This document shows positions 28,386 to 57,355 of a stretch of 57,355 nucleotides of DNA, piece by piece. Position numbers and translations under genes: made by a program. Position 1 is the stretch's first letter, and each line of letters starts with the position of its first letter. The notes beneath the pieces are model-generated. The model had not been told where the DNA came from. It ran no database searches and saw only the letters and a program-made list of their open reading frames with translations. Source of the stretch: a virus; IMG/VR virus record IMGVR_UViG_3300020411_002891, positions 1-57,355 of that record. The stretch is one strand, 5' to 3'.

Positions 28386-29477
28386 ATGGGTTACGAGCAC
28401 ACAACTCTTGATTTTTACGACGACATGGGAGCAATCCTTAAAGATACCGTGTCTGATTCTGCCGATCTGCCGGATTTCATTAAGACTGCGGCTTCTGTTA
28501 CTGACGAAGACCCGGGCAACTGCTTTGCTCTTGTCATGGTAGACGACGGTAAGGTGCTTAAGAAGTTTGCTACGGCTGATAAAGGTAATACGTGGCTATC
28601 CTCTCTGTACTTTTCTATGACGAAAGACCGCCTACCTCCAGAAGCGCAGAAAGTGGCCGCCGCAAATCTACTAGTAGCTTGTGAGCATTACGGAATCGAA
28701 GCGCAGCCTGACCTATATGATCTGTCTGGAGACGATCCCCCAACTACTAATGTTGTAGATGTCACGAACGTTATGCCCGCAGTAAAGGTAGCAGAGAGGC
28801 AAGACGTAAACTTTGCCATCGAACGGGCAGATGGAAGTAAGTCATATCCCCTCGATAACGCAGAGCAGCTGGCTGCTGCGAACGAGTACTTTTCTCTTAA
28901 TAAAGGCAGCTTTGTTCCTAGAGAACGTAGAGAGTTTGCGGTTAAGGTGGCTTCCGTTGCAGACAAAATGGGCATGCCAGTAAGCGATTCTGTGCGAGAG
29001 TATTCAGGGAGTGATTACTCCCCAGTCTTAGAGGGCCACCTATCGCTTAGGTACCAGCACCTTATGGACACGGATGCCGCCCCAGAGCTTCGAACAGAGC
29101 TTATGAAACTGGCCCAGTCTCGCGCCTCTGACGGCCCCGACTCTTTTGCTGATGGGCTATACGACTTTGATAAGAAGGCAGGACTTGATCGGTTTTGGGA
29201 CCGCACATTGTCCGATCCTTGGTACTCGACTTTTGGTATGACTAAGAAGGCGTACCCCGAGCCTAAGTCTGCTAAGTCCTATACCGTAGGGGCAGACACT
29301 GTTAGCGGAGAGGCACTGCATCGTCTTGCTGCCGCTCGCAAAGAAGTCTCTGATCATTTCGGTATGTCGTTTGCTAACGCGTTCTTAAAAGATCCTGAGT
29401 CCATGTTTGAGTCCATGCCCATGCCTCAGAAGAAGGTACTGGCTCGTATGGCTAATGATATGAGAGCCTCTTTGTAG
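28386..29477 (+). CDS. Virion-region protein of unknown function, 363 aa
   Basis: GAGGA precedes the ATG by 7 bases. This is the first gene of the long rightward structural operon. 'LPDFIKTAASVTDEDPG' near residue 30 carries the K(T/V/I)AxS-like signal found in other head-region proteins. Further 'KVA' segments ('AVKVAERQ', 'AVKVASVAD', 'LMKLAQS') recur along the chain. No enzyme motif was seen. Position three genes upstream of the portal suggests a head or internal protein. Confidence 0.65.
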   Translation: MGYEHTTLDFYDDMGAILKDTVSDSADLPDFIKTAASVTDEDPGNCFALVMVDDGKVLKKFATADKGNTWLSSLYFSMTKDRLPPEAQKVAAANLLVACEHYGIEAQPDLYDLSGDDPPTTNVVDVTNVMPAVKVAERQDVNFAIERADGSKSYPLDNAEQLAAANEYFSLNKGSFVPRERREFAVKVASVADKMGMPVSDSVREYSGSDYSPVLEGHLSLRYQHLMDTDAAPELRTELMKLAQSRASDGPDSFADGLYDFDKKAGLDRFWDRTLSDPWYSTFGMTKKAYPEPKSAKSYTVGADTVSGEALHRLAAARKEVSDHFGMSFANAFLKDPESMFESMPMPQKKVLARMANDMRASL

Positions 29478-30139
29478 TGGGACAGGCTTTACTGCGACCC
29501 GCAGGTATTCTAGAGGATGAGTATGGTCTACATCTGCTCGTCCTAGACGCCTTATGTATAAAGCATATCGGCCCTGAATACATAGGCTGGGACACAGAGG
29601 CTCTCAAGGCGGAGCTGTCAGAGGACTTTGGAGACATAGGCGTAGTTACCTGGGAGCGGATTCAGGCTGCTCGGCTGCTGCACGCTAACGACTCTTTTTG
29701 GAAAGAGTGGGAAGTTTTTGAGAAGGTCACTGCTGCGATTATGGGTGAGCCTCCTATATTTAGTTACTCTCAGCCTCCCGAAGCAGAGGAGATAGCTATA
29801 GCAATCGCCACTGCAGCTGCGGTAGCTAACCACAAATATACTGATGACGTTTGTGGGTATATGGCTGCTGCCTGTCTCTTTGACGGCTTGTGGTATCTCG
29901 ACGATCACATCGAAGTAGCTGAGGCTGCTTTGACAGAACACGATAAGAGAAAAGGTATTAGTCGTGCATTTGCTGCCGTAGCTGGTAGACTGGAAGAAGT
30001 TTCAGACTATATAAAAGAGCCTAACTCTGCTATTGATGTACAAGTCAATCACGTTATTTCCGTTAGGAAGGCACTTGCCGAGTACAACGGGCAGATAGAA
30101 AAACAGTTATTAAACCTCCCTAAGATTATGGAGCAGTAA
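29477..30139 (+). CDS. Helical protein of unknown function, 220 aa
   Basis: GTG start at 29477 overlaps the previous stop (TAGTG), indicating coupled translation. The product is alpha-helical, with an Ala-rich central region ('EIAIAIATAAAVANHKYTDD'). It ends directly before the ATG of the next gene. No motif recognised; virion assembly role inferred only from its place before the portal. Confidence 0.6.
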   Translation: MGQALLRPAGILEDEYGLHLLVLDALCIKHIGPEYIGWDTEALKAELSEDFGDIGVVTWERIQAARLLHANDSFWKEWEVFEKVTAAIMGEPPIFSYSQPPEAEEIAIAIATAAAVANHKYTDDVCGYMAAACLFDGLWYLDDHIEVAEAALTEHDKRKGISRAFAAVAGRLEEVSDYIKEPNSAIDVQVNHVISVRKALAEYNGQIEKQLLNLPKIMEQ

Positions 30140-30529
30140 ATGGACGACCTTAAAGAACTAAACGATATGGACTTAAAAGGTCGCTTTATCGCCCAGGCCT
30201 TTGTCGAGGAACTTGAGGAGATTGAAAAAGTCGCTAATTTAGGCTTTTTCGCTAACCTTGCGCGATCGGCTACTCGGTCAGGGGCAAAAATGTTGAGCGG
30301 AGTATCTAAGAAGGTACCCGGCGGCCAGGGCGCCCTTAGGGGCGCGGCGGGGCCCGTAGCCCCTAAAGGCGTGGGTAAGGCTACGAGCCGACAATACACA
30401 GGCAATAGCATGAAGGATCTGGCTAAGTTTTACGGCGGTAAGGGTCTAATGTGGGCCGGTAAGAACCCACGCAAGGCTACCGCAATAGCCGGCACTGGCG
30501 CTGTCGGTACTACTGCAGCACTTACGTAA
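30140..30529 (+). CDS. Small head-region protein with EKVA signal, 129 aa
   Basis: GGAG is 6 bases before the ATG. The N-terminal 35 residues are acidic and helical and end in 'EELEEIEKVANLGF', a form of the recurring ELEK(I/V)A signal. The rest is basic and Gly/Ala-rich ('SRSGAKMLSGVSKKVPGG'-type composition), with a hydrophobic C-terminus ('KATAIAGTGAVGTTAALT'). An acidic removable leader before a basic body would suit an internal head protein; this is inference. Confidence 0.65.
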   Translation: MDDLKELNDMDLKGRFIAQAFVEELEEIEKVANLGFFANLARSATRSGAKMLSGVSKKVPGGQGALRGAAGPVAPKGVGKATSRQYTGNSMKDLAKFYGGKGLMWAGKNPRKATAIAGTGAVGTTAALT

Positions 30530-30538
30530 GGATAGTTA

Positions 30539-32422
30539 ATGGCGGGCATCTCCACAAAGGGCTTTGGCCCGAGCAGTTCGTATCGGTGGTCTGGGTTTAG
30601 GCACGGATCGCTAGATGCGCGGAACAACACGTTCCGGTACCCATCTCAGTGGTGGGACATTGCTCATATGGAGTTGCCCACTTCAGTAAAGCAGCTCTTT
30701 CGCTGGTGCCGTTACCACGTATTAGTAAATCCGCTCATCAGTTCCGTTACGCGAAAGATGGCTTCGTACCCAATTACGAAAGTAATCGTCGACGATAAGG
30801 GGGAAGAGGGTTTTGATAAAAATTACAAGAGGTGGAATGACTTTCTGTTTCGAGTAATTGATATCAATAAGTTTCAGATTGAGGCGGGGCTTGATTACCA
30901 CACGTATGGGAACTGTGTGGTATCCATACTCTACCCATTCCATAAGCACTTAAAGTGCGGCTCCTGCGGATTCAAGGAACGGATCAAGCGGCTGAAGCGG
31001 AAAAAAGATTGGGACTTCCGAAACTTTGAGTACACGATGAGCTGCCCTAAGTGCGGCGCTCATGGAAAGGCTGAAGTAGAAGACGTATTCTATAGGTCCT
31101 ATAGAGATATTAAGCTCATCCGATGGAATCCTTCTGATCTAGACATCGATTTTAATCCTATTACTCAAAAGTCAGAGTATGCCTACCGTATCCCTGACGG
31201 AATGAGGAGAAGGGTTCTGCAGAAGAACTCTAAGTACTTAGAGGAGACGCCTAAGCGCTTTATCGAAGCGATGAAGAGCAAGAGGCCGGTCGTCCTAACT
31301 AGAGAGAACATCTTTCACTTTAAGGCACCGACGCCCTCTCTTTCGGGCAACGACGCTGGCTGGGGGTACCCCCCAATCTTGCCTGCCCTAAAGGACTCCT
31401 TCTATCTCCAGATAATGAAGAAGGCCCAAGAGGCCGTCATGCTCGAGCACTTGGTGCCTCTTGATATCCTCTTTCCTTCGTCTACGGACGCTAACGCAAA
31501 CCCTTATACGACCATCAACTTGTCTGATTGGAAGACTCGGATTGAGCGAGAGCTGAGTAAGTGGCGAGGCGACCCTAACTATAAGCCCATCCTCCCATTA
31601 CCTGTCGGGTACCAGCGAGTTGGCGGTAACGGTCGTGCCTTAATGCTTACGCAAGAGGTAAGGGCTTGGAGTGAGCACATTATCGTAGGTATGGGCGTAC
31701 CCCAAGAGTTTGCGTTCGGTGGACTGAGCTGGACTGGATCGAGTGTGTCCCTCCGTATGCTGGAAAACAACTTCTTGTCTTACCGAGACATGCATGAACA
31801 TTTCCTGAAGCACTTTCTGATATCAAGTGTAGCTAGGTTCATGGGCTGGAAAGAGATTGGCGTTCATATGAAGGCCTTTAAGATGGCTGATGATGTCCAA
31901 TCGAAGCAGCTTCTTATGTCCCTCAACCAGATGCGTAAGGTATCTGATCAGACCCTTCTTGCTGAGTTTGATAAAGATGCTCTCGATGAGCTTAGGATCA
32001 TTGAGAAGGAGCTTAGAAGAAACCTCGAGGTCACCAAGCTGGATACTATGTATAAAGCGCAGATTCAGGGAGAGAGTCAGCAGATTGCGACTAAGTACCA
32101 GATGAAGGCTCAAGATATCCAGATGGCCGCCCAGAGGCGTGCCGCTGAACAGCAGCAGGGCGAGCAGGCTCCACCAGAACAGCAGCAAGAACAGCCTGGC
32201 GGCGAGCAGAGGACAGTTAATGTCGTAGACCTTGCAGAAGCCTGGGCGAAAAAAATATCTAGGATGCCTGTTGAGGATCGGGCTCCGATCCTCAAACAGA
32301 TGGAGGATCAGAGCCCTAACCTTCATCAGTTAATTCTTCAGAAGGTTCAGGTTATTGACTCCCTTGAGCAAAAGCCTCTTCCAGAGAAGGCTCCGCCTCG
32401 CCGAAGCGGTGGGGTCATCTAA
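30539..32422 (+). CDS. Portal protein, with inserted zinc ribbon
   Basis: The 627-aa protein has portal-like features: an N-terminal wing, then 'GWGYPPILPALKDSFYLQIM', 'IIVGMGVPQEFAFGG' and a long C-terminal helical, Gln-rich crown. A pair of CxxC motifs at C140/C143 and C169/C172 with basic residues between looks like a zinc ribbon inserted in the wing. Portals form the dodecameric DNA channel at a capsid vertex. The C-terminal Gln/Glu-rich stretch is flexible. AGGA lies just upstream of the ATG. Confidence 0.85.
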   Translation: MAGISTKGFGPSSSYRWSGFRHGSLDARNNTFRYPSQWWDIAHMELPTSVKQLFRWCRYHVLVNPLISSVTRKMASYPITKVIVDDKGEEGFDKNYKRWNDFLFRVIDINKFQIEAGLDYHTYGNCVVSILYPFHKHLKCGSCGFKERIKRLKRKKDWDFRNFEYTMSCPKCGAHGKAEVEDVFYRSYRDIKLIRWNPSDLDIDFNPITQKSEYAYRIPDGMRRRVLQKNSKYLEETPKRFIEAMKSKRPVVLTRENIFHFKAPTPSLSGNDAGWGYPPILPALKDSFYLQIMKKAQEAVMLEHLVPLDILFPSSTDANANPYTTINLSDWKTRIERELSKWRGDPNYKPILPLPVGYQRVGGNGRALMLTQEVRAWSEHIIVGMGVPQEFAFGGLSWTGSSVSLRMLENNFLSYRDMHEHFLKHFLISSVARFMGWKEIGVHMKAFKMADDVQSKQLLMSLNQMRKVSDQTLLAEFDKDALDELRIIEKELRRNLEVTKLDTMYKAQIQGESQQIATKYQMKAQDIQMAAQRRAAEQQQGEQAPPEQQQEQPGGEQRTVNVVDLAEAWAKKISRMPVEDRAPILKQMEDQSPNLHQLILQKVQVIDSLEQKPLPEKAPPRRSGGVI

Positions 32423-32478
32423 CTGCTCAAGTAGAGCAGGACGCCGTGAATAACGGCTAGTACAAAGATAGGTATCAC
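32419..32478 (-). CDS. Candidate 19-aa hydrophobic peptide
   Basis: GTG with AAGGAT about 7 bases upstream opens a 20-codon frame, MIPIFVLAVIHGVLLYLSS, that would make a single membrane helix. It lies just downstream of the 40-aa leftward gene and overlaps the portal stop. The short length and the shared sequence with the twin hairpins make it uncertain. Confidence 0.25.
   Translation of the reverse strand: MIPIFVLAVIHGVLLYLSS
32423..32457 (+). other. Twin small hairpins after the portal gene
   Basis: CTGCTC-AAGTA-GAGCAG is followed at once by GCCGT-GAATA-ACGGC, both with 5-base loops. The second arm can also pair with CACGGC at 32476-32481. No T-tract follows, so this is not a standard terminator; it may be a processing or attenuation structure. 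Confidence 0.45.
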
Positions 32479-32489
32479 GGCTACTATCC

Positions 32490-32612
32490 TTAGTCTGGGT
32501 ATATAGAACTATTAAGTTCGTTTTCTATTTCTTCGTAATCTCCACAATCTTCTTCTACTTCCTCTTCATCCGCAGGGATTTCTTCCTTTGGATCGTTAAA
32601 TACATGAGTCAT
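32490..32612 (-). CDS. Small acidic protein, 40 aa
   Basis: ATG preceded by AGGAG with 6-base spacing. The product begins MTHVFNDPKEEIPADEEE and is strongly acidic. It is encoded on the strand opposite to the surrounding operon, in the 267-base gap between portal and RNA polymerase, facing away from the polymerase gene. A small acidic protein could be a transcription regulator or DNA mimic; nothing in the sequence decides this. Confidence 0.55.
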   Translation of the reverse strand: MTHVFNDPKEEIPADEEEVEEDCGDYEEIENELNSSIYPD

Positions 32613-32629
32613 GTTAATCTCCTAAGGGC

Positions 32630-32684
32630 AGCGACTATGCTTACCCATTAGTCTTATGCGAGAATCCTTAGTGGATTACCGGAG
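32630..32684 (+). promoter_or_regulatory. Conserved upstream element, copy B (before RNA polymerase)
   Basis: CTTATGCGAGAATC (32653-32666) and GATTACCGGAG (32674-32684) match copy A at 28348-28380. An upstream GCGACTATGCTTA also resembles copy A's GCGATCACTTTGCTTA. The ATG follows at a distance similar to copy A. It sits between the divergent 40-aa gene and the polymerase gene. A promoter or factor-binding role is inferred from conservation. Confidence 0.5.
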
Positions 32685-32689
32685 TATAA

Positions 32690-35600
32690 ATGTCACAGCT
32701 TGTTCCAGAGAAACAGTTTTCGGCCATTAAGACTGAGGTAGAGAAAGCTATCAGGGACAACTTTCCGGTATCTACGAAGAAGTCGGAAATAAAGCTGCAC
32801 GACGTTTGGGTAGATGACAACAAGAAGTCTACTGATGTCCGTGGGCAGAAAGACGCCCTGATGAGAGGCCGGAGCTGGAATGTACCGGTCTATGCTGACC
32901 TATCCCTACGGAGGGGCGGTAAGGAAGTCGATAGAAAGAAAGTTATTGTTGCCCACATACCTAAAATTACAGATCGATTTGGCTACATCGTTGACGGTAA
33001 TGAGTACCAAACGCTGAACCAGTTTCGCCTTAAGTCCGGCGTGTACCACAGAAGGGCCGCTAATGATCTCTTGCTAGCTGAGTTCAACCTAGCCAATCGA
33101 GATCAGTTTGCTAAGGGCAGGTCATTCAAAGTACAGGTAGATCCCAAGGATGCCATCTTCTACCTAAAGTTTGAGAACTCCCACATACCCCTGTACCCCT
33201 TAATGAAAGATCTGGGAGTCAGTGATCGAGTATTAGAGCGTACTTGGGGTAAAGAGATCGCTCGAAAAAACAGAGACAAGATGCCTCCCGATAGGGCTTT
33301 GTCTAACTTCTATAAAGCTGTGAATGGCAAAAAGCCGGAGAACATAGAGGAGGCTCGCGGCCTCCTAGGTGACCTACTCAAAAAGACTAAGTTGCTAGAG
33401 GAGACTACCAAAAAGACTCTGGGTAAAGGCTACAAGACCGTTGAGTCAGGCACGATACTATCTGCTACTAAAAATCTACTGTCTATGTCTAGAGGAGAGC
33501 GGGCTGGGGACGATAAGACGTCCTTAGACTTTCTTTCTGTCCACTCTGCTGAGGACCTAATCGCAGGCAGGATCAGGGACGCAGCATGGAAGACTCGTAG
33601 GAAGATCATAAATGGCCTGGATAGAAAGAGGAGCGTACGGAGCATTGTCCCTACATCTGAGTTCGACAAGCAGATAAAAAGCTTCTTCCATACATCTTTG
33701 GTATCTCAGGGCGAGCAAACCAATCCGTTAGAGATGCTTGCTGGCCAAAGAAAGACAACCATCATGGGAGAGCAGGGTGGTATTAAGTCTATCCACGCTA
33801 TCTCGGAAGACTCAAAGCTAATCAACCCGTCTCACTTAGGTTTTTTGGATCCCATCCATACTCCAGAGGGTGAGCGGACAGGCATTTCCCTTACACTACC
33901 TATCGGCGTCTCGAAGAAAGGTAACTCCCTTAACTCGACGTTTATGGACGCTAAGACTGGAAAGAAGAAAGCGTTGGATCCGGGAGAGGCCCTGACCGCT
34001 ACTGTAGGGTTTCCCGATCAGTACGAGTTTGTTGGAGGTAAGCCAAAGCCACGAGGGAAAACGGTAAAGGCAACAGTAAACGGCAAGGTAGTTAACGTAG
34101 ACCCGAAAAAGGTGGACTACATAATACCGAGTGCTCGCGGCATCTTTAGCGTCAGCTCAAACCTGATCCCGTTTCTACAGAACAATCAGGGCAATCGCGC
34201 TATGACTGCTGCAAGGCAGCAAGAGCAGGCAGTCCCTCTGGATAATAGGGAGGCTCCTCTGGTTCAGGTGCAGACGGATGGCGCTAACACTTTTGAGCAG
34301 GTTTTAGGTAAGTATGCGTCCCGCAGGTCTCCAGTAGATGGAGTTATAGATAGGGTAAAGAAAGACGCTATCGTAATTCGCAAAGGTAAGAAGAAATACG
34401 AAGTGCAGCTCTACCGAAACTTCCCTCTACAGGGACAGACTCTGTACGACTCTACGGTAAAGGTAAAGGCAGGCGATCGAGTAAAGAAAGGTCAGCTAAT
34501 AGCTGATAGCAGCTTTACTAAAGACGGTACGCTTGCGTTAGGTACAAACCTCCGTACCGCCTACATGCCCTTTAAGGGATATAATTTCGAGGACGGCATC
34601 GTAATCTCAGAGTCGGCGGCGAAGAAACTCACTTCGCTGCATATGTACAAGAAGGAAATTGAGGCCGACTCTGAGGCCGTCATTAACCGAAAGAAGTTCT
34701 TGGCTGAGCACCCTTACTCTTTCAAGAAGGACCAGATCTCTGGGATTGAGGATGGCGGAGTTATAAAGGTCGGAGCAGAGGTAAAGGAGGGAGACCCTCT
34801 GGTCCTTCTGCTAAGGAAGCCGTCTGAGACGAAGTATCGGTCTGATCTAAAAACCTTCAGTAGAGGTAGGCCCGATAAGTACAGGGACAGGTCTGTTGTG
34901 TGGGACAAGCCCTACCCCGGTATCGTTACCGACGTCGTTCGTAGGGGTAATAAGGTATCTGTGTTCGTTAAGACTAAGGAACCTGCCCAATCCGGAGACA
35001 AGCTAGTAGGTAGGCACGGCAATAAGGGAATTATTACTAAGATTGTAGCGGATTCAGACATGCCTTACCGAGAGGGTAAAGGCGGTAAGCGTGAGCACAT
35101 TGAGATCGCACTCAACCCGTTAGGCATCCCTGGTCGAATAAACATTGGGCAGGTCTTAGAGACCGCTGCAGGAAAGGTGGCTGAGAAAAAGAAGGGCATC
35201 TATAAAGTAAGGAACTTTGCCCCAGGATCAGACTACTTAGGCCAAGTAAAGGAAGATCTCAAAAGCGCAGGGCTCAAAGATAAAGAAACTCTCATAAACC
35301 CAGAGACTGGAAAGCCTTTTGATCAAGATATACTAGTAGGTAATCAGTACACGTTTAAACTACGGCACCAGGTCCAGAAGAAGATGTCGGCCAGGTCCGG
35401 CGGCTTTGGTAGCCCTTACAATATCAATCATGCGCCTGCTGGCGGAGCGCCGCACGGTGGCATGTCTTTGGGAGAGCTGGGCCTTTACTCAATGCTAGCC
35501 CACGGTGCTCGAGAGAATCTCCATGAGATGTTCGCGTACAAGTCGACGAAGAACGATGATCTATGGGACGCGCTACGAGAAGGCACTCCTCTACCTCCCC

Positions 35601-42943: not shown

Positions 42944-44896
42944 ATGTCCACTAAACCACTTATTTATTCCCCAGAAGTAACTTTCGAGAAGGTTGCTTCT
43001 ACTGCACGATTAGAGTCGGACGCCAATGAGTGGCCTTCTGAGATCCTTAAAGTGGCTTACAAAACACTTCCGTATCTTAGGGCTTACGAGGTAGATGTTG
43101 ATCTAGATAAGATTGACGAAGCTAGAGGGTACGGCATCGGGAAGCTGTTGATCTACCCAGCTCGTATGACTAAGCAGGCAGCTGCGCAGCAAGAGCGGCT
43201 GATCTCCTTTCCTGTAATAGTAAAGGATCGGGAGATGTCTCCTCTTGATGTTTACTCACACAAAAACACGATGCATCCAGAGTCAGAGGAGGCTGTAGAG
43301 AGCCTTCTTTTCCGCCCCGACTTGTTTGAGAGCAACGCAAAGCCAAATACATTTGGTGGCCACGACTTAGGCGGCCAGATCAATCCGCCTACAATGAACC
43401 TCCGACCAAATACAGGTATTCAGAAGCTTTCTTCTGTAAACTTATGGAAGGCGGCTCTCCCAACATTTCGTGATGCGGACGTAGACTCTTTTAAGAAGTC
43501 TGTGAGCAACAGCATGGGAGTAAAGATTGCTTTTGCTACTAGCGAGGTACTTAAAGCCATCGTTGAAGATCTTGCAGACCACAAAGAGGTTACTGCATCG
43601 GATCTTGCTAGTAGTAGGGTAGAGTCAACTCCTCCCTCGACTGTTCAGTTTGTTGCTGATGGTATGGGGTATCGAGTAAAGACGGCAAGCCATCGATGCT
43701 ATGCGCCTACCGAGAAAACCATAGATAGATTTGAGGCGGAGGATGTCCTGTCTAAAGAGGCTATGGACCGACTCAAGAAAGACGGCATTCTTACCCTTAC
43801 TGTGGATCCCATCGAAGAGTCCTTTACTGTTAAAACTGCGCAAGAGGCCAACCGCTTCGGTATTTACTCTACTCGAGTAGGAAGTAAGGACGTTGAAGGC
43901 GTTGTCGTCCCTCGGATGATTTCCCTAGAAGGCAAGGAGCTTGACCTTCAGGTATTTGCTGGGGAAGGTGAGCACGCCGTCCAGGAGAAGATCGCTGGAG
44001 TGTTTAAGAACGATGTGATCGTCCCTGACGCAGCCCCCCGAGGCTCTGGTATCTTTGTGTATCAGTCTGGTCCTATGGCAGTGGCTACGGAGCCCGTAGA
44101 GATTACCAATCGCTTTTCCATCAACTACGGTACCGAGAAGGTAGCGCAGTACAGTGGTAAGACGTCTGTTTATGGAGAGCCTGTCCAGATCACTGTGGTA
44201 CCCGGTCTTCAGAAGATCGCCTCTACAGGTCCGGGGCAATATGCAATTCCGGATACGTTCCGATTTGTTCCCCTAAACGGTAAGCAAGTAACTGTAGCTG
44301 CCACGACGGATAGTGTTGATCTATTTGAGAAGCAGAAGGTTGCCGGAAGAAACTCTGTTGAGGTTATCTCCGATGGCTCTTTCTATTCGCTACGCGGCGC
44401 TAACTCTGAGAGTGCCTTTGGTGGTGAAGTACTAAACAAGGCAGAAGCGGAGTTTGCCCTTAGCGCCATGGGTGTTGCAGGTAACCAGGTCCGTGGGTTG
44501 CTGAAGAAAGCATCTGCAAATGGTAGTGTCCGAATCCCGCACACCCGGCAGGTAGTGTTGGAAGCCACTGCTAAATCAGCCCTACTTAAAGAAGCATCTG
44601 ACAATGCAGTAGACGTTACTCCTTACCGAGTAGATTTAGTTAAAGAGGCGTCTGTTATTGTGGATAAAGAGACTGCTGATGCAATTCTATCTCTTGGGTT
44701 CGTTACCCCTGAGAACGTATCTCTTTACGTAGACTATCTCCCAGAGCTTGAGAAGGTATCTTCTAAGCTGGCAGAGATTCTTGTAGCGAGCCGTTTGGGT
44801 ATGGACGACGTAAGGGAGTCCGCCGCTAAGAACGCTATGACCCAATTAACCTCAGTCGTTCAAGGTCTTGGGCAACTGAAAGCTAAAACACAGTAG
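42944..44896 (+). CDS. Large head-region protein with repeated K(V/I)A signals, 650 aa
   Basis: ATG 42944 is preferred over earlier in-frame starts because GAGG lies 5 bases upstream and it follows the previous stop. The N-terminus is 'STKPLIYSPEVTFEKVAST', carrying the recurring (F)EKVAS signal at residues 13-18. Similar segments recur along the chain: 'ILKVAY', 'IQKLSS', 'EKVAQYS', 'LQKIAST', 'LKKASAN' and 'LKEASDN'. The body is otherwise mixed alpha/beta. No enzyme motif recognised. A virion protein processed or packaged with the head is inferred. Confidence 0.65.
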   Translation: MSTKPLIYSPEVTFEKVASTARLESDANEWPSEILKVAYKTLPYLRAYEVDVDLDKIDEARGYGIGKLLIYPARMTKQAAAQQERLISFPVIVKDREMSPLDVYSHKNTMHPESEEAVESLLFRPDLFESNAKPNTFGGHDLGGQINPPTMNLRPNTGIQKLSSVNLWKAALPTFRDADVDSFKKSVSNSMGVKIAFATSEVLKAIVEDLADHKEVTASDLASSRVESTPPSTVQFVADGMGYRVKTASHRCYAPTEKTIDRFEAEDVLSKEAMDRLKKDGILTLTVDPIEESFTVKTAQEANRFGIYSTRVGSKDVEGVVVPRMISLEGKELDLQVFAGEGEHAVQEKIAGVFKNDVIVPDAAPRGSGIFVYQSGPMAVATEPVEITNRFSINYGTEKVAQYSGKTSVYGEPVQITVVPGLQKIASTGPGQYAIPDTFRFVPLNGKQVTVAATTDSVDLFEKQKVAGRNSVEVISDGSFYSLRGANSESAFGGEVLNKAEAEFALSAMGVAGNQVRGLLKKASANGSVRIPHTRQVVLEATAKSALLKEASDNAVDVTPYRVDLVKEASVIVDKETADAILSLGFVTPENVSLYVDYLPELEKVSSKLAEILVASRLGMDDVRESAAKNAMTQLTSVVQGLGQLKAKTQ

Positions 44897-44903: not shown

Positions 44904-45293
44904 ATGATTTATTCAGATGACAACATTCATACAGCACTTGAAAAGTTGGCTGCGTCAGGTCTTGATAAGACAGCAGTTAGTGCGGACTTCGTGAGGGCTG
45001 CGATAAAGAAACGTCTGGAAGGCGTCCAAAAGGGTAAGCTCAGAGGAATGTTCGTAGGGCATAAGCCTGCAGCCGAAGCGACGTCAGCTCAATTAAGCCG
45101 TATTAGATACAATACTAAGGCACGAAAAGCTGCAACCCAGTCGGCTGCAAATAACCCTGACTTAATTTCTAGGCCCGGGGGCATGAAAAAGCTGAAGGCA
45201 TATAACAAAGCCAAGAATGTCGACACTGCCGTTGATGACGGCCAGAACCGCGCTAAGGTACTACAGCACACTAAACGCCTGTGGAAGTATTAG
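44904..45293 (+). CDS. Small basic head-region protein with EKLA signal, 129 aa
   Basis: The N-terminal 'HTALEKLAASGLDKTAV' has two adjacent copies of the K(L/T)A signal, followed by a Lys/Arg-rich body ('KARKAATQSAANN', 'KKLKAYNKAKN'). GTGA precedes the ATG. Charge distribution and position suggest an internal head protein. No family recognised. Confidence 0.6.
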   Translation: MIYSDDNIHTALEKLAASGLDKTAVSADFVRAAIKKRLEGVQKGKLRGMFVGHKPAAEATSAQLSRIRYNTKARKAATQSAANNPDLISRPGGMKKLKAYNKAKNVDTAVDDGQNRAKVLQHTKRLWKY

Positions 45294-45295: not shown

Positions 45296-45535
45296 GTGGA
45301 TCTCACCCCTACTAGCGTAGCGTCCTATTGGGATGAGCTTGAAAAGATCGCTAAGAAGTACAGCGTTCGCGGTGCTTCTGGCGGCCGTGCTCACAAGGGT
45401 GCGGCAGACGGCGTAAAGCTAGTTCTTGGAAAAAATGTTTCCATGAGCAAGCTAAAGCAGTATAAAAAGTCATCTCCTCTTCATGTAGGGGGAGATGAGG
45501 ACTGGGCAAACGTCCCTGCCACCTCAGTTCCGTAG
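45296..45535 (+). CDS. Small basic protein with DELEKIA leader, 79 aa
   Basis: GTG 45296 lies two bases after the previous stop, with GGAAG about 8 bases upstream. The N-terminal 'ASYWDELEKIAKKYSVRG' is one of the clearest copies of the recurring signal. The rest is basic and Gly-rich, with an 8-base-pair hairpin in its coding sequence (45470-45498). Likely a head-associated small protein. Confidence 0.6.
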   Translation: MDLTPTSVASYWDELEKIAKKYSVRGASGGRAHKGAADGVKLVLGKNVSMSKLKQYKKSSPLHVGGDEDWANVPATSVP

Positions 45536-47254: not shown

Positions 47255-47737
47255 ATGCACCCGCTATTTATTGCGTTTAATGACGAGCTTGAGAAGATTG
47301 CTGGAGTCCCTAGACGATTAAGGGTGCTGGATAAGTTGCCTTTTGCGGAGCGCATGAAACGTAGAGTTTTTACCTACGGATCTGACATGATGGGAGCGCA
47401 CAACGTAGGTAAAGAAAGTTTTAGAACCGCAGTACGTCACTCTAAAGACCCTACTATGCGCAAGTATATGACGGAGCCTTTAGAACAGCGTAAGAAAGAT
47501 ATAATCGAACTAGGTAGGAAGCGTAAGGCCCGCGCTCGTAGAGCAGCTGAGCTTCGTCAGGCTACGGCTACTGCATACAAGCCAGGAACTCCGATGAGTC
47601 AGACAGGTAGGCGGTCGGAAGCGCTTAACGTTGAGGTCGCGCCTAAAGGACTTAAACGACGGATTCAGGACGGAGGTAAGACGCGTAGCCCTACGTTCAA
47701 GGACTACGTAAAGTCTACTAAGGGTATTGGTGGATAG
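47255..47737 (+). CDS. Basic head-region protein with DELEKIA leader, 160 aa
   Basis: The N-terminus 'HPLFIAFNDELEKIAGV' is a model copy of the recurring signal, an aromatic residue followed by ELEKIA. The body is strongly basic ('RKRKARARRAAELRQ'), as expected for a DNA-associated internal head protein. It lies just before a convergent leftward gene, whose stop abuts its own. Confidence 0.65.
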   Translation: MHPLFIAFNDELEKIAGVPRRLRVLDKLPFAERMKRRVFTYGSDMMGAHNVGKESFRTAVRHSKDPTMRKYMTEPLEQRKKDIIELGRKRKARARRAAELRQATATAYKPGTPMSQTGRRSEALNVEVAPKGLKRRIQDGGKTRSPTFKDYVKSTKGIGG

Positions 47738-50388: not shown

Positions 50389-50402
50389 CTTTTCCCTCCT
50401 TT

Positions 50403-51188: not shown

Positions 51189-51229
51189 GGAAGTAAAGAT
51201 AACACGCTCGGCGGGCCATTTCACGTTCG

Positions 51230-51258: not shown

Positions 51259-51268
51259 TGAGGTCATC

Positions 51269-52147
51269 ATGAATGAATTTATTGAGAAGCTCGCAAACAC
51301 ACGAAGCAGCTCCACTTCTTCCGACCACTTGCGGCTATTAGCAAAAAGAGCCGCCAGCATTTTTTCGGAAGATCAAGATAGTGGCCTTAACAATGCTATT
51401 TCCTCAGCGATTGGTGGAGAGGACTTAAACAGAGATCAAATCTCTAGAGTTACCGAGATGGCTAACCAAGAGACCTGGAAGCACTTATTTGCTGAGGGTA
51501 ACGGTGATCGCAACGCCAGCTTCTCTCCTGGAGAGAGTTCTTCTATTATTGATTCTCTTGCTACTACCCCCGATCAAGCAGCCGCCCCTATTACTGATTA
51601 TGCAGAGGATCCTCGAGGCGAGTCCATCCCAGATGACCTTGATTTAGAAAACCTCTTTGGAGTATCTAAGGATACTCCTGAGTACGAGTCTTTGAACCCG
51701 TCCCGCTCAGAAGAAGTGGCGCACGACAAGGCTGCCGCTGCCGCTGACTTAGCTCGGCACGGTATTGATGGTCTTATTAGAGAGCTTCAAGACATCAACG
51801 AGTCTTTCTACGAGCAAGTAAAGCAGGCGCACATCAGAGATGGTCATAGCATTCTTCAGATCGCTAAGTCTGTTGCTGAGGTTACTGAGCCTGCGTTTGC
51901 GGAGAATGTAATTCAAGTTGCAGCGACAAAGATGCAGGAAAACGGTATTAAGATCGATCTAGAGAAAGAGGCCAGTATTGCCTCCGCACCCTTCGTAGTA
52001 AACACAGAGCACCCATTACTCGAGACGGCAGTTGTTTTTGAGAAGATTGCGTCTTCTTATGTAAAGGCTGCGAGGACGCAAGAGAAGTTGGAAGCTCATG
52101 CTGCGGACACTGCTAAAGCCCTTAAAGATAAGATTCGGGGCGTATAG
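51269..52147 (+). CDS. Head-region protein with EKLA leader, 292 aa
   Basis: ATG 51269 is preferred to an upstream TTG because it follows the promoter and has GAGGT 4-5 bases upstream. It opens with 'NEFIEKLANTRSS', the recurring signal within the first 9 residues. The protein is acidic in the middle, with later K-A-containing helices ('LEKEASIAS', 'FEKIASSYVKAA'). First gene of the head operon; scaffold or internal protein inferred. Confidence 0.6.
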   Translation: MNEFIEKLANTRSSSTSSDHLRLLAKRAASIFSEDQDSGLNNAISSAIGGEDLNRDQISRVTEMANQETWKHLFAEGNGDRNASFSPGESSSIIDSLATTPDQAAAPITDYAEDPRGESIPDDLDLENLFGVSKDTPEYESLNPSRSEEVAHDKAAAAADLARHGIDGLIRELQDINESFYEQVKQAHIRDGHSILQIAKSVAEVTEPAFAENVIQVAATKMQENGIKIDLEKEASIASAPFVVNTEHPLLETAVVFEKIASSYVKAARTQEKLEAHAADTAKALKDKIRGV

Positions 52148-53145
52148 TGACAGACGCCGAGCTACTACTTCTTTCTGCCAAAGGCTTTCGCGCCTATGAG
52201 TTGGAGAAGTCTGCGAACATAGCCGCTGGCGCAAGAGCGGGCTGGGGCGCGGTAAAGGGTTGGCTCGGTCGCACTGCTTCCAAGTCAACTGCTAAGGCTG
52301 GAGCAAAAGATGTTGCTAACGCCAACCTGCTGACTCGCTTGGGTAGGTCTGCTAAGAAAGATCCTATGGCCGCTGCAGGAGCAACGATGATGTTCCCTGT
52401 GCTTCCCGGCATAGGCAAGAATCCTTTGTATATGCCAATGACCGGAGAAGCTGGGGCAAAACACACTCAGCGAGCGGCACGCAATAAGGCTATACAAAGT
52501 TACTACCAAACAGGAAAACAAAAGAGGCACCCTATGACTCGTCTTGCTTCAGACAATAGATACGAAGGGCTTACGAAAGTTGCCTATGATGAGAGCACTC
52601 TTAGAAGAGCAGCGCAGCTAAGGCGGTCCTTAGAAAAAACTGCGGCGCCTGGTGGTATCTTCGCTAACTTAATGAAGTCTACTCCTAAGAAACTCTTTAT
52701 GCTTGGTGCAGGGCTAACTGCCGGTACAGCAGCAGCGCAGGGCGGCATGACTGCAATCCATCAGGGTATGGGCGCTATGGGCCGTGCGCTGCATAGTGCT
52801 AGAGAAACGAGTGCTTACAACAAGATGTTGAAGGCGGACCCATCACTTAGGTCTGAGCCCGAGGCGCGTAACTATTTTGGCGTAGTCCACCGTGCTAGTC
52901 CGTACATCTCTAGTGAGCCCATTATTGCAGCCGCTACCGTGCGCTCTATGATTGAGTCTCCGTTGGGTGCCCCTGACGAAAGACGTATGCAGTCTGTATT
53001 GGGTACCGAGACTGAATACCGCAAGCAGAGATACCCATGGTCGGGTGGCGGGCAAAAAGCTCCTGGCCCTAGAGATATTGCAGCCGCTGATGATATGTTA
53101 TCTGGAGCTGTACAGAACGCAGCTCAAATGGGTATGTTCACATGA
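52147..53145 (+). CDS. Head-region protein with ELEKSA signal, 332 aa
   Basis: GTG start overlaps the previous stop (TAGTG). The N-terminus 'AYELEKSANIAAGARAG' carries the signal, with further copies at 'LTKVAYDE' and 'SLEKTAAPG'. The body is basic, with a hydrophobic Ala/Gly-rich segment ('LFMLGAGLTAGTAAAQGG') that might be a membrane or packing helix. Probably an internal or ejected head protein. Confidence 0.6.
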   Translation: MTDAELLLLSAKGFRAYELEKSANIAAGARAGWGAVKGWLGRTASKSTAKAGAKDVANANLLTRLGRSAKKDPMAAAGATMMFPVLPGIGKNPLYMPMTGEAGAKHTQRAARNKAIQSYYQTGKQKRHPMTRLASDNRYEGLTKVAYDESTLRRAAQLRRSLEKTAAPGGIFANLMKSTPKKLFMLGAGLTAGTAAAQGGMTAIHQGMGAMGRALHSARETSAYNKMLKADPSLRSEPEARNYFGVVHRASPYISSEPIIAAATVRSMIESPLGAPDERRMQSVLGTETEYRKQRYPWSGGGQKAPGPRDIAAADDMLSGAVQNAAQMGMFT

Positions 53146-54707
53146 TGGATAAGATTGTCCGGTTTCAGACACACGACGACATTGGAAGGTGCTTTGCTGA
53201 GGCGCTCCATGTGCGTCCGTCTGGTACTGGGCATGAGAAGGTTGCTGGGGAGTTACACCCAGAGCTGAAGAAGTTTATTCAGACCCTTCAACCAGATCCT
53301 AGATACCAGTACGTTCTTATGACTCCAATGGGGGCATTTGAGTACTGGGGTATGAATGTAAACGGAGACGTATTCCCGGAAGCATCTTTGGCATTTGACT
53401 CTACTAAGGACAACGCAGTTTCTGTAGCAAGGGCGCTAGAAGATAAGTGGCTACGTCCCTTCGGTAAGACCATGCCTCCAGGCAACTATAAAGAGTTTGG
53501 ATACAAAACCTTTATGAACGCTCTGCGTTACCGGCATCATGTAAATAAGAACCCTGAGATAGCCTACGGTGACATTGTGTTCACTATCTGGAACCCCGCT
53601 ATGAAGAGGGTTGAGTGCATAGCTAGGCACGACCGAGAGAAGGCTAAGAGAGTTGGTGCAGAAGAAATCATCCGTGATCTAGATGAAGGTAAGCCACGTC
53701 AGATCAGTATGGGCTGTAAGGTTCCTTTTGACGTATGCACCGTATGCGGTCACGTTTCTAGAACCCCGCACGATTATTGCGAGCACCTAAAGTTTGAGAT
53801 GGGCAGCATCCGCCCAGACGGTAAGGTAGTCGGAGCAGTAAACTTCTTTCCGCGCTTTTTTGATCTATCTGATGTATTTGTGCCGGCTGCTAAAGAATCC
53901 GGCGTACTTATGAAAGTAGCTCGAGATACTTCGGTACCTTTTGAGGAAATAAAGCAGGCCGCAGTAAACAAAGTAGCGGAAATGGACAAAAAGGTTTTGC
54001 CTAACGCCGCCAGTAGAGCCATGCTTGAGGCCAATAAAGCTGAGCCCGATATCCCCAAAGATGTTTTGCGTAGGCCGGATTTTTCAGATGTTCTGTCTAC
54101 GCTTGCTATGCTCGGTATTGTTCTAAAGCCCTCTGAGTTCCAGTTTGGCATGCTGAATAGAATGGGCCATTCGTCATTAGCAGATAGATTGTTTAGAGAA
54201 CGTCGAGTATTCTCTCCGGTTAGCTACAGCGGCCCTGCATCTTTATCTGCAAATAATTACACACCCAGCATTGCGCGCTTGGTATCCTCGTTAATACCGC
54301 ACAGATCGGGATTCTATCCACATCTGCCAAAGCGTATGATTAAGATTACTGTGATTAAGAAAGCGCCGCCCAAGGAAGAAATGCGCCCAGCACCACAAGA
54401 TACAGTGTTATCTAAAGTAGCGTCGGCGTATGCTATGTATCGGAAGTCCTTGCGAAGTTTGCCTACCGCGCTAAACATTGCAGTGGAGAGTGATCCTGAG
54501 TATTATTCTCAACACTTCTTTAGTGATCTAATAGTAGACTCTATGAACAAGACCGCCTCAGTTCACGGGGCTTTTTCGGACAAACCACTCGTTTCTCAAT
54601 ATCTTTACAGCGCACATGGTGATGAGGTAATGTCACCACCAAGAACCTGGGCTGCCGAGATAGCATCTAATTCACCCGCAAAAGCCTTATTGGGCCCAGT
54701 ATTGTGA
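53142..54707 (+). CDS. Probable prohead maturation protease with zinc knuckle, 521 aa
   Basis: 'RYRHHVNKNPEIAYGDI' (His at 132/133, then A-x-G) followed ~57 residues later by 'ISMGCKVPFDVC' (Ser189) matches the His...Ser spacing of HK97-like prohead proteases. A CxxC...CxxH knuckle ('CTVCGHVS...YCEHL') follows directly. The N-terminal 'HEKVAGEL' at 31-38 has the recurring signal and could be self-processed. The C-terminal ~270 residues carry further 'KVA'/'KTAS' segments and may be a scaffold part. It lies before the capsid genes, as expected. Confidence 0.55.
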   Translation: MMDKIVRFQTHDDIGRCFAEALHVRPSGTGHEKVAGELHPELKKFIQTLQPDPRYQYVLMTPMGAFEYWGMNVNGDVFPEASLAFDSTKDNAVSVARALEDKWLRPFGKTMPPGNYKEFGYKTFMNALRYRHHVNKNPEIAYGDIVFTIWNPAMKRVECIARHDREKAKRVGAEEIIRDLDEGKPRQISMGCKVPFDVCTVCGHVSRTPHDYCEHLKFEMGSIRPDGKVVGAVNFFPRFFDLSDVFVPAAKESGVLMKVARDTSVPFEEIKQAAVNKVAEMDKKVLPNAASRAMLEANKAEPDIPKDVLRRPDFSDVLSTLAMLGIVLKPSEFQFGMLNRMGHSSLADRLFRERRVFSPVSYSGPASLSANNYTPSIARLVSSLIPHRSGFYPHLPKRMIKITVIKKAPPKEEMRPAPQDTVLSKVASAYAMYRKSLRSLPTALNIAVESDPEYYSQHFFSDLIVDSMNKTASVHGAFSDKPLVSQYLYSAHGDEVMSPPRTWAAEIASNSPAKALLGPVL

Positions 54708-54714
54708 GGATCTC

Positions 54715-55158
54715 ATGGACATGAACTCTCTTCTCGAATCTCTTTACTCCAACGACGTTGCTACTCCAGACCTTGAGAAGACAGCAGAATCTGCTCTTAT
54801 CGACGGCCTAAAGGGTCCCGAAGCGCCCGTAGAAAACCCATTCATGGAAATGTCTACTGCTGACCTAATTAAGATGGCACAAGAGCTCGAGGCTCCCGTA
54901 GCCGTAGAGGAGTCAACTCCTGAAGCTACTGCTGAGGTAGAGGTTTCTGAGGAAGACGAGGCAGAGAAGATTGCTTCTGAGCAAGAGCTTGAGAAGGTGG
55001 CATTCGATATGCTGGGCGGTCAGATCATGGCCCACTCTATGATTCACGAGTTTGGCCTTATTAAAGAGGCTATGGCTCAAGGACTTTGCCGAGTATGCAA
55101 AGAGCAGGCGATGGACGTCGAAGGCTCTTCCGTATGCTCTGTATGCCTAAACGGTTAA
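54715..55158 (+). CDS. Acidic scaffold-like protein with C-terminal zinc knuckle, 147 aa
   Basis: GAGGATCTC precedes the ATG. The N-terminal part has 'DLEKTAES' and 'LIKMAQEL', then 'EAEKIASEQELEKVAFD' with two signal copies nine residues apart. The middle is very acidic (Glu/Ala/Val). The end is 'CRVCKEQ...CSVCLNG', a CxxC pair of zinc-knuckle type. An acidic helical core with processing-like sites suggests a scaffold; the zinc knuckle is unusual for one. Confidence 0.6.
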   Translation: MDMNSLLESLYSNDVATPDLEKTAESALIDGLKGPEAPVENPFMEMSTADLIKMAQELEAPVAVEESTPEATAEVEVSEEDEAEKIASEQELEKVAFDMLGGQIMAHSMIHEFGLIKEAMAQGLCRVCKEQAMDVEGSSVCSVCLNG

Positions 55159-55159
55159 A

Positions 55160-55348
55160 GTGGTTTATAACTATTTCGCAAGGGAGCTTGAAAAGATAGG
55201 TGTTGCTAATCAGCCTAAGCCCGATGACCCTAACAAGTCATGGAGAAGAGGCCCGAAACCCCCACCTTCGGTTAAGCCGGCTCCAAGTAAAGGTCCCCTT
55301 TCTAAGTCTTTTAAGACACATTCCCCAAAACCCCCAGAAGTCAAATAA
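55160..55348 (+). CDS. Small Pro/Lys-rich protein with ELEKIG leader, 62 aa
   Basis: GTG start one base after the previous stop. The leader 'VYNYFARELEKIGVANQ' is a near-perfect form of the signal (Gly for Ala). The rest is Pro/Lys/Ser-rich and basic ('KPPPSVKPAPSKGPLSK'), probably disordered, resembling T4-type internal head peptides in style. Confidence 0.55.
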   Translation: MVYNYFARELEKIGVANQPKPDDPNKSWRRGPKPPPSVKPAPSKGPLSKSFKTHSPKPPEVK

Positions 55349-55359
55349 GGACACCCTAC

Positions 55360-55977
55360 ATGGCTAAGACACTGAATGAACTTATTACGGCAGCCATCTC
55401 TGGTGCCGAAGAGGACGAGGCCCGCGTAACAGCTGATCTCGAGCCTGCTGTTGAGGAGCCAGCTGTAGCAGCCAGTTCTTTTGACGGCGACGTAGAGAAG
55501 ATTGCTAGCGCTCTTGAATTTATCGGCCGTAGGGGAATTGAGTCCTTTACTAAAGTCGCAGATGCGCCAGAGAACAACGAAGGCCATCTTCGCAAGGACA
55601 CCGTAGACCTTAAGGGTAAGGGGCTTGGGGATCACAACCCAGCACTTGCCTCTAACGAGGCTGCAACCAACTTCGATAAGAAGGTGAAGGCTAAGCAAGT
55701 TTCGGACACACTGTCCGAGGCTCTTAGCCACACAGCGTTTGCGGATCCTGGACTAAAGAAGGCCGTTTCTAACGCAGCTGCTAAGGGTGATAAGAACATT
55801 CACTCTAAAGCAGCCTCTGTAAATGACACAAATGAAGATGAGCCCGAAAACGTGGTAGAGTCTACTACGGAAGAAGCAACCGAGAAGGTTGCTTCGGCTT
55901 CAGATGCTGATCTTATCAGACAAGCTCTTGCTGCTAAGATCGCAGAAGCTAAGGGAGATGATAACCATGTTAACTAA
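55360..55977 (+). CDS. Acidic head-region protein with three signal copies, 205 aa
   Basis: AAGGA lies upstream of the ATG. 'VEKIASALEF', 'FTKVADAPE' and 'TEKVASASD' are spread through a Glu/Ala/Asp-rich helical chain. Such a chain punctuated by repeated K(I/V)A(S/D) segments is what a scaffold degraded by a protease would look like; this is inference. It ends overlapping the next gene. Confidence 0.6.
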   Translation: MAKTLNELITAAISGAEEDEARVTADLEPAVEEPAVAASSFDGDVEKIASALEFIGRRGIESFTKVADAPENNEGHLRKDTVDLKGKGLGDHNPALASNEAATNFDKKVKAKQVSDTLSEALSHTAFADPGLKKAVSNAAAKGDKNIHSKAASVNDTNEDEPENVVESTTEEATEKVASASDADLIRQALAAKIAEAKGDDNHVN

Positions 55978-56329
55978 GATTGGAAGCGCAGAAGTAAACG
56001 CTACGCTTATCAAAGCAGCGGAAGCGATCCGCGATCTTAATGCAGATAACGAACGTCTACGCGCTGAAATTAATGAATATGTAAGAAAAGGTCACGCGGA
56101 GAAGATCGCTTCGTCCGCAGTAGAACGTGGCATTATGGACGTAGAAGAAGCAGATGAGTATGCTCGTGGTTTAGCGAGTGGTAGCACAGATTTAGATATG
56201 GTTGAAGAGTTTGTCTCCCGTACAGTTGCGGGAGTACCCCTTGGATCTGCAGTTAAAACTGCATCCGCAGACGTATCTGAGGTAGACTCGGATGTGTTGA
56301 CGTCTTTCTTGTTAACTAACGACATTTAA
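55967..56329 (+). CDS. Small head-region protein, 120 aa
   Basis: ATG 55967 has GGAG 9 bases upstream and overlaps the previous gene by 11 bases. The chain is helical, with 'LIKAAEAIRD', 'HAEKIASSAVERG' and 'AVKTASADVSEV' signal-like segments. Probably a scaffold or head-assembly protein encoded next to the capsid gene. Confidence 0.6.
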   Translation: MLTKIGSAEVNATLIKAAEAIRDLNADNERLRAEINEYVRKGHAEKIASSAVERGIMDVEEADEYARGLASGSTDLDMVEEFVSRTVAGVPLGSAVKTASADVSEVDSDVLTSFLLTNDI

Positions 56330-56346
56330 TTCCCTGGAGGAACATT

Positions 56347-56853
56347 ATGGCTCTCGAGCTTAGAACCCCCGTTAACGACGTCATCCGACACGATGTCGCC
56401 GTTGCCGATGCAAGTAATCTTCTTGATCCCGATAACTCAAGCACAAGCGATCCCTGTCTTGTAGCCGGCGAGTGGCTGATCCCTGGCGCCGATGGTTGGG
56501 ACCGCCCAACCGACGAGAATACCGCAGCCGCAGCTCAAGTGTTCTCCCAAAAGGGAGACTTTGGTGTGCAGGCTCTGTCTAAGGTCGCGGTTATTCGTAG
56601 CTTTGGCTACGAGGCTGAGACCGATATGTACGAAGCTGCCGATGACAGTGGCGTCGACTACGCTATTGGTCAGGTACTTGCGGTTGAGACTGAGACGATT
56701 GATAGTAACGAGCGTGCTATCCTGACCAACTCAGTAACTGCAGACACAGACTACGTACATGCTGTAGTTACTGCACTTCCTTCTGCTACTGCAAGTGGGA
56801 AGCTTCGTTTCATGCGCGTATCACCATACCGCTCACCCGTTACCAATTCCTGA
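56347..56853 (+). CDS. Small capsid-associated protein, 168 aa
   Basis: GGAGG precedes the ATG. The sequence is beta-rich and acidic ('PGADGWDRPTDENTAAAAQ', 'ALSKVAVIRSFGYEAETDM', 'LAVETETIDSNERAIL'), with no enzyme motif. Its location immediately upstream of the major capsid gene suggests a decoration or stabilising head protein. Confidence 0.55.
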   Translation: MALELRTPVNDVIRHDVAVADASNLLDPDNSSTSDPCLVAGEWLIPGADGWDRPTDENTAAAAQVFSQKGDFGVQALSKVAVIRSFGYEAETDMYEAADDSGVDYAIGQVLAVETETIDSNERAILTNSVTADTDYVHAVVTALPSATASGKLRFMRVSPYRSPVTNS

Positions 56854-56883
56854 GCATAGCTTCAGACTAAAGGAGAAATCAAA

Positions 56884-57355
56884 ATGGCTGACGCTAACGC
56901 CAGTACAATTAATTCACTATTTTCCGCCCACCTCGATAACCCCGAGGGCAAGGAGAAGCTTGCAGCTGTAGCTCAGGCTTACGTACGGGATAAGCTGCGT
57001 GAAAACAGCTTCGCTCGCAAGATCCTTCCGCCCATGATGGTTACCAAGGCTGATATGCAAGTCAGTGTAAACCACGACACGTTGGTCTACATTGATGAGG
57101 TCGAGCCCGACTCTCGTGCGATGGCTATGTCCTTCCGTGGACAGCCCACTGCACGGTTCATCTCGGCTAAGCGGTATGAGATCCCTTGCTTCACAATCTC
57201 GTCCGAGCGGTTCGAGAAGACTGAGCAGGAGCTCATGGCATACCGTATGCCCATCACCAAGGTAATCGAGGACAACTCGGTTAAGGACATTCAGGAGATC
57301 GAAGATCACCGATTCATCACTTACGTTGAAGCTGCTGTTCAAGCTACTTCTAAGA
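56884..57355 (+). CDS. Major capsid protein, N-terminal part (partial)
   Basis: AAAGGAG precedes the ATG, and the frame is open to the right window edge (157 codons visible), so the gene is cut. The product begins MADANASTINSLFSAHL. It has 'AYVRDKLRENSFARKILPP', a capsid-like N-arm leading to a beta-rich region ('MQVSVNHDTLVYIDEVEP') and then the long E-loop/spine-helix style segment. HK97-fold capsid proteins have this layout. It follows protease, scaffold-like and decoration-like genes, as expected. Confidence 0.7.
   Translation, partial: MADANASTINSLFSAHLDNPEGKEKLAAVAQAYVRDKLRENSFARKILPPMMVTKADMQVSVNHDTLVYIDEVEPDSRAMAMSFRGQPTARFISAKRYEIPCFTISSERFEKTEQELMAYRMPITKVIEDNSVKDIQEIEDHRFITYVEAAVQATSK

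Follow-up and report, generated by a model that had tools for sequence, protein, structure and literature searches.

The locus and its motif-bearing genes

The virus record IMGVR_UViG_3300020411_002891 of the IMG/VR database is a linear viral fragment of 57,355 bases, and the whole of this stretch is referred to here as the window. Its genes are laid out in a tail-fibre block (about positions 1-10,900), a minus-strand replication block (about 11,000-28,300) and a structural block that lies mostly on the plus strand (28,386-57,355). Proteins encoded in the structural block share a short sequence pattern that consists of two nested signals: a general core, K-x-A, found in proteins of head morphogenesis, and a longer AFxDELEKIA tag at the N-termini of small cargo-like proteins. 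In a manner resembling bacteriophage T4, but with another sequence code, the tag probably directs its carriers into the head of the virus, to be removed afterwards. Gene starts were taken from a simple caller, and later counts use refined starts.

All of the motif-bearing genes lie on the plus strand. Within the window, the tag (A-F-x-D-E-L-E-K-I-A) occurs in three genes. Gene 47255..47737 encodes a cargo-like protein of 160 residues and net charge +21 with AFNDELEKIA at residues 7-16 (47273-47302), gene 45296..45535 a small protein of 79 residues with SYWDELEKIA at residues 10-19 (45323-45352), and gene 55160..55348 a small basic protein of 62 residues with YFARELEKIG at residues 5-14 (55172-55201). 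The cargo-like protein of 30140..30529, 129 residues long, bears a lengthened version, AFVEELEEIEKVA, at residues 20-32 (30197-30235) with EKVA at 29-32; its orthologue in the relative G3 reads AFEEELEKIA.

The core is found in a further set of genes. Its densest carrier is the 650-residue product of 42944..44896, with EKVA at residues 15-18 (42986-42997) and about four internal copies. The adjacent small protein of 44904..45293 has an N-terminal ALEKLA (EKLA at residues 13-16, 44940-44951) and a second site, DKTA, 8 residues on. Of the head-block proteins, that of 51269..52147 carries EKLA at residues 6-9 (51284-51295) and FEKIAS near its C-terminus, and that of 28386..29477 an internal site of the form (A/E)(E/Q)K(V/T)AAA (28647-28658) that is kept in orthologues. 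The Gly-rich protein of 52147..53145 has a variable N-terminus with YELEKSA (52204-52215) and EKTA at 163; a K-x-A near the N-terminus is present in most of its orthologues. Next to it, 53142..54707 encodes the predicted capsid maturation (prohead) protease with EKVA at residues 32-35 (K-x-A-G, 53235-53246). Two acidic scaffold-like proteins follow, one with EKTA at 21 (54775-54786), EKIA at 84 (54964-54975) and EKVA at 93 (54991-55002; gene 54715..55158) and one with EKIA at 46 (55495-55506) and EKVA at 175 (55882-55893; gene 55360..55977), and a third scaffold-like protein, with a predicted helical segment, contains HAEKIAS (56099-56110; gene 55967..56329). The major capsid protein (56884..57355) runs off the window, which holds only its first 157 codons; it matches phrog_2522, has no Pfam match, and carries its site near the N-terminus (56953-56964).

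Enrichment of the motif among head proteins

A first-pass annotation of the window had listed twelve unrelated genes of the head region that share such a segment, usually near the N-terminus. The segment is indeed present in 12/12 of them, with an enrichment stronger than had been stated, and the list was incomplete since gene 28386 (AQKVAAA) and the capsid gene 56884 (KEKLAA) carry it too. In the structural block, EK[IVLT]A is observed 18 times against 0.99 expected from composition shuffles; with refined gene starts there are 19 sites, the shuffle maximum being 6 among 5000. A first-order Markov null gives an expectation of 1.26 and a maximum of 5 of 100. The comparison of head, replication and tail sets that the annotation had also proposed did not give an equal frequency: the head proteins have 18 sites, whereas the replication block, with 0.6 expected, and the tail-fibre block, with 0.15 expected, have none.

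An unbiased scan of every gapped tripeptide, in which no pattern was chosen beforehand, ranked L.K.A, EK.A, KVA and K.AS highest in the window head block. The same tripeptides rank first in the head blocks from two long relatives, as they do across a third relative's whole contig, and they are not in the top lists of non-head proteins from the window and the two long relatives. The sites are biased towards the N-terminus: 12/32 lie within the first 40 residues in the window versus 5.5 expected, and the two relatives give 16/61 versus 8.4 and 20/52 versus 8.6. As the annotation had supposed, the carriers are unrelated; no pair among those in the window matched by BLASTP at E<=0.01, and therefore paralogy among them is not detectable.

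Across up to 14 related contigs, core sites concentrate in the orthologues of 28386, 30140, 42944, 44904, 45296, 47255, 51269, 52147, 53142, 54715, 55360, 55967 and the capsid protein. The averaged core, drawn from 547 distinct contexts, is [L/M/I/F]-E-K-[T/V/I]-A-[S/A]; the position after Ala is 4-fold enriched in Ser. There are 27-101 sites per family for the protease, the scaffold-like proteins and the 51269 and 42944 families, and the N-terminal sites of 51269 recur in 12/13 orthologues; the protease family has 45 sites. The 42944 family is the richest, with 101 sites in 11 orthologues versus 2.3 expected, or about nine K-x-A per orthologue. This protein, for which tblastn found no counterpart in 50,697 records of cultured phages, is possibly a large scaffold or internal protein.

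The description of the carriers as head-region proteins holds for the protease, the scaffold-like proteins and others. It does not extend to every protein of the block, as the portal, the baseplate hub and the decoration-like protein 56347 lack the motif; no core sites were found in their families nor in those of most replication genes. The terminase, the tape measure and a few replication families show low numbers only, at chance level or as coincidental internal matches. EKVA and EKIA matches in the RNA polymerase were likewise judged coincidental and set aside as a signal because they sit in a conserved internal segment.

Among cultured phages, [LM].K.A[SAG] is enriched in the head blocks of Vibrio phage D69 (22 versus 1.2 expected) and Salmonella phage Arash (16 versus 1.4 expected), and the core is enriched in many contigs with a phage-encoded multi-subunit RNA polymerase. 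Four actinophages with related proteases, Myrna, E3, Pupper and RedWattleHog, do not show the [LM].K.A[SAG] core. In the head block of Gordonia phage RedWattleHog (L328), K-x-A-[SAG] is found 18 times versus 5.4 expected, with the [LM] and E positions missing; this is perhaps another cleavage code, used by a related protease.

The N-terminal tag

Within the first 60 residues, the tag is carried by nine proteins in G3, five in G1 and three in the window, where 0.004-0.01 would be expected. The window, G1, G3, G4, G5 and G6 were found by way of other genes and the tag was not used; G049, G082, G051 and G083 were chosen because they bear it, so that their counts are not independent. Tagged genes are not confined to the head block, as 4/5 in G1 and 4/9 in G3 lie outside it. 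Some proteins have tandem double tags (L176, L117). Each degenerate codon of the tag shows several synonyms, and since these are mixed freely, the constraint acts on the protein.

To extend the survey, IMG/VR was scanned with the degenerate DNA form of A[FY]xxE[LF]EKIA, as were the bacterial and archaeal genomes of GTDB; the resulting counts are lower bounds. Together with the fetched genomes, the IMG/VR matches with an N-terminal tag amount to at least 119 tagged proteins, which form at least 86 families, unrelated to one another, once the tag is removed. Families were clustered tag-free, as single-linkage with the tag kept merged 85 tagged proteins through the tag match itself. Among the matches listed, the median start of the tag is residue 8, and in 80/86 families it begins no later than residue 15; the pattern starts at or before residue 20 in 52/87 viral versus 11/80 GTDB proteins (p=4e-10), the GTDB matches being mostly internal. 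Other IMG/VR matches, in T4-like portal (AFMSELEKIAVVHL) and tape-measure (AYIKELEKIAKAQR) sequences, lie within the protein and served as negative controls. Pseudanabaena phage PA-SR01, to which a helicase match had led, has no tag. In the open-access literature, the strings ELEKIA and DELEKIA gave unrelated words only, with a prior description possible in subscription papers, and no N-terminal packaging motif was found beyond that of T4.

Composition of the tagged proteins

The tag-free remainders of the tagged proteins were compared with 1148 untagged proteins from the same contigs and size range. Their median net charge per 100 residues is +12.0 versus -1.08 (p=1e-30), and 96% of them are net positive versus 42% of the untagged set. 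They are poor in Cys (0.15% versus 1.2%) and rich in Gly and Ala (24.5% versus 15.1% combined).

Among the large tagged proteins that depart from this type are two enzymes. One is an SNF2-type helicase of 720 residues (L103:766-2928), which may be packaged, judging from its tag. The other is a GNAT acetyltransferase with a glyoxalase-like domain (L141:4859-6058), a candidate injected enzyme whose role would be comparable to that of T4 Alt. In Arash, the homologue of the helicase (gp217) lies beside an RNA polymerase fragment and is without the tag.

The capsid protease

The product of gene 53142 is homologous by tblastn to proteins annotated as prohead protease or capsid maturation protease. 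The head maturation protease family phrog_18299 is matched by 7/12 aligned members, with the window protein itself reaching only E=0.036. His133 and Ser189 are invariant in the 12 aligned sequences, which include annotated proteases, and are candidate catalytic residues. The K-x-A-G lies directly ahead of the conserved core domain and is invariant in 11 orthologues. A K-x-A is also present at about the same place in the proteases of D69, Arash and two other phages with an RNA polymerase, which are about 25-30% identical to that of the window.

A family-profile search places a protease homologue in 39/48 of the N-terminally tagged contigs among the matches listed; of the nine contigs that lack it, several are short fragments. 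No homologue was found in the 40 contigs where the pattern is internal (in portal, tape measure and other large proteins), many of which are also short. The association of tag and protease supports the mechanism set out below and does not prove it. In the contigs G055, G062, G076 and G081, protease homologues occupy open frames of 1000-1679 residues with the domain in widely spaced pieces, which suggests very large insertions or fused regions.

A model for head assembly and its alternatives

The annotation had suggested that the segment may mark proteins for packaging or processing. This idea fits everything testable by computation, although it had merged two signals, the K-x-A core and the longer AFxDELEKIA tag. 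We consider it likely that head assembly uses them as a code in two parts, for sorting and for processing, in which the core is the protease site and the N-terminal tag is a capsid-targeting sequence (CTS). From the computed features described so far, namely the signals, their distribution and protein-level conservation, the cargo composition and the link to the protease gene, we infer a docking partner, packaging, cleavage at an exact bond and delivery at infection.

In the model, the acidic scaffold-like proteins, the protease and the cargo would assemble together within the prohead, whose interior probably holds many of the core carriers. The aromatic and hydrophobic half of the tag (A-F-x-D-E-L, with its F and L) would dock the cargo on the scaffold core and so bring small basic proteins, and an occasional enzyme, into the prohead. 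The core, [L/M/I/F]-E-K-[T/V/I]-A-[S/A/G], would be the sequence that the capsid protease of the phage itself (gene 53142) recognises and cuts. Cutting at K-x-A would then remove the tag and break down the scaffold-like proteins, and the freed basic cargo may bind the packaged DNA and be delivered with it at infection. As for the scissile bond, it probably joins Ala to Ser or to another small residue; the alternative is a cut after Lys.

Several observations weigh against this model. The preference for Ser at P1' is seen in core sites and not in N-terminal tags. Tags per contig range from 0 to 9. The cultured relatives D69 and Arash have the K-x-A core, and some of their basic proteins are N-tagged, but the complete AFxDEL form is absent from them. 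Shared descent alone could make tag and protease travel together. The AlphaFold models are too poor to use, with a predicted local distance difference test (pLDDT) score of 55 for the protease and 31 for the capsid protein; a Foldseek search with the protease model at this pLDDT of 55 gave no significant match. Lastly, the EKLA of the capsid protein aligns with an N-terminal segment still present in the deposited chain of phage G gp27. Its reading as the end of a propeptide was downgraded on this account and, because gp27 retains the equivalent segment, EKLA may be an inherited N-terminal helix instead of a cut site.

The first alternative is that the EKxA helix serves only as a docking motif which binds one hub, be it the scaffold, the inner face of the capsid or the portal, with no proteolysis there. 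Inspection of the sequence places F, L and I on one face of a predicted amphipathic helix, several copies per protein would give avidity, and the tags have no small-residue preference after Ala, all of which would suit docking. Yet K and A are near-invariant with the 4-fold enriched Ser next to them, much like a protease logo, the motif lies ahead of the core domain of the protease itself in divergent relatives, and the protease family marks the same contigs as the tag. Docking alone is possible and rather unlikely.

It is a good deal less probable that the tag sorts proteins to an intracellular compartment, nucleus-like or vesicle-like, and not to the capsid. Tagged proteins are basic and include enzymes such as the SNF2 helicase and GNAT acetyltransferase, as such a destination might lead one to expect; however, replication, recombination and RNA polymerase proteins would need import and are without the tag, and the core is common to scaffold-like proteins and the capsid protease. 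An effect of composition or shared ancestry, either from Glu/Lys/Ala-rich helices or from one duplicated N-terminal domain, is very improbable. Head-block proteins are helical with much Ala, Lys and Glu, but the composition and Markov nulls fail to reproduce the counts, other large proteins of the same block show no motif, and the carriers show no homology once the tag is removed. A DNA or RNA signal at gene starts (promoter, operator or translation signal) that codes for the motif by chance would explain its position near those starts and is scarcely credible, given the several synonyms at every degenerate tag codon and the in-frame cores deep inside genes.

Comparison with known systems

The proposed two-part code finds its closest parallel in the internal proteins of T4 (IPI, IPII, IPIII and Alt, with the gp21 protease), where an N-terminal peptide of about 10 residues is likewise borne by unrelated small basic proteins (PMC9026906). 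For IPIII the first 10 residues suffice; positions 4 and 7 serve targeting, and positions 8 and 10 serve processing (PMC9026906). The same source also describes the T4 internal proteins as basic, present in about 300 copies each and variable between relatives, with separable targeting and processing residues (PMC9026906). As in T4, an aromatic and hydrophobic part is followed by a cleavage-like part, the core recurs in other head proteins, and the cargo genes vary (PMC9026906). Features of the T4 prototype found here are the common N-terminal peptide, the small basic carriers (predicted to resemble DNA-binding proteins) and the prohead protease gene.

The annotation's comparison to the T4 CTS accordingly holds for the small, basic and Cys-poor carriers, the link to the protease and the K-x-A core in protease and scaffold-like proteins. 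It does not hold for the sequence code, which is K-x-A(S) and not L/I-x-E, with the consensus AFxDELEKIA in place of the T4 CTS; the L/I-x-E pattern that would define a T4-type CTS is not among the top patterns of the window head block. The system described here further differs in its range of cargo, at least 86 families with a helicase and an acetyltransferase among them, and in being known from sequence alone.

A second parallel is with phiKZ and SPN3US (gp175/gp245, S/A-x-E), in which many head proteins have N-terminal propeptides and redundant sites (PMC10052503, PMC9026906). The SPN3US protease cuts after Glu at A-x-E before Ser according to a mass-spectrometry logo, and its site resembles the present one in a layout where a single residue separates two fixed ones and a small residue, preferably Ser, follows the cut (PMC10052503). 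The two systems differ in that cleavage in phiKZ and SPN3US follows Glu, and the portions of the two sources at hand describe no shared N-terminal tag on small cargo (PMC10052503, PMC9026906). The S/A-x-E processing pattern of the phiKZ/SPN3US type is not among the top patterns of the window, and [LIAV].E occurs 136 times versus 142 expected in the head block of D69 and 160 times versus 133 expected in that of Arash, against 22 versus 1.2 and 16 versus 1.4 for [LM].K.A[SAG].

The presumed bond is also reminiscent of the herpesvirus assemblin sites, which are of the type hydrophobic-x-Ala followed by Ser after the cut. Shared features are the Ala then Ser at the bond, a conserved His and Ser, and sites in both the protease precursor and the scaffold. 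Unlike in assemblin, the Lys two residues before Ala is fixed here; the likeness is one of site layout and conserved residues.

If the model is true, sequence would suffice to predict which proteins of a large uncultured lineage of phages are internal and injected. In T4 and the phiKZ-like phages, head-internal proteins were learned by experiment, largely mass spectrometry. The tag would also give a handle on the specificity of the capsid protease and a new address label for packing foreign proteins in phage heads. On balance, we lean towards the view that a large and mostly uncultured lineage of RNA-polymerase phages uses a new targeting and cleavage code (AFxDELEKIA, with cleavage between Ala and Ser of the core K-x-A-S) to load a large and fast-changing arsenal of injected proteins, and that the tag alone identifies many virion-delivered proteins, helicases and acetyltransferases included.

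Relationship to RNA polymerase-encoding phages

Besides the carriers of the motif, the genes of the structural block include those for a baseplate hub, for a GpA-type terminase (48114-49790; PF05876, phrog_675) and for an RNA polymerase in which beta and beta' form one chain of 2051 residues (32690-38845) with Pfam Rpb1 and Rpb2 domains. The polymerase has relatives in IMG/VR and in cultured phages and is without the N-terminal tag. By its polymerase the window recalls the mReC phages, the RNA-polymerase-encoding Caudovirales of Weinheimer and Aylward, which have a gp23-type capsid (PF07068) and PF03237 terminases (PMC7481178). The likeness lies in a deep-branching multi-subunit RNA polymerase (beta, beta') encoded among structural genes; the differences lie in the GpA-type PF05876 terminase of the window and its phrog_2522 capsid without a Pfam match. 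The accessible passages of that source do not mention a head-protein motif for mReC (PMC7481178). The window either belongs to the mReC phages or stands next to them, though its terminase and capsid families differ. The beta-beta' polymerase is a single polypeptide in the window and in the relatives G1 and G3. In D69 and Arash it is broken inside beta' into about 1527 and 606 residues, at 23289-27872 and 28511-30340 in L030 and at 30094-34671 and 39442-41262 in L031.

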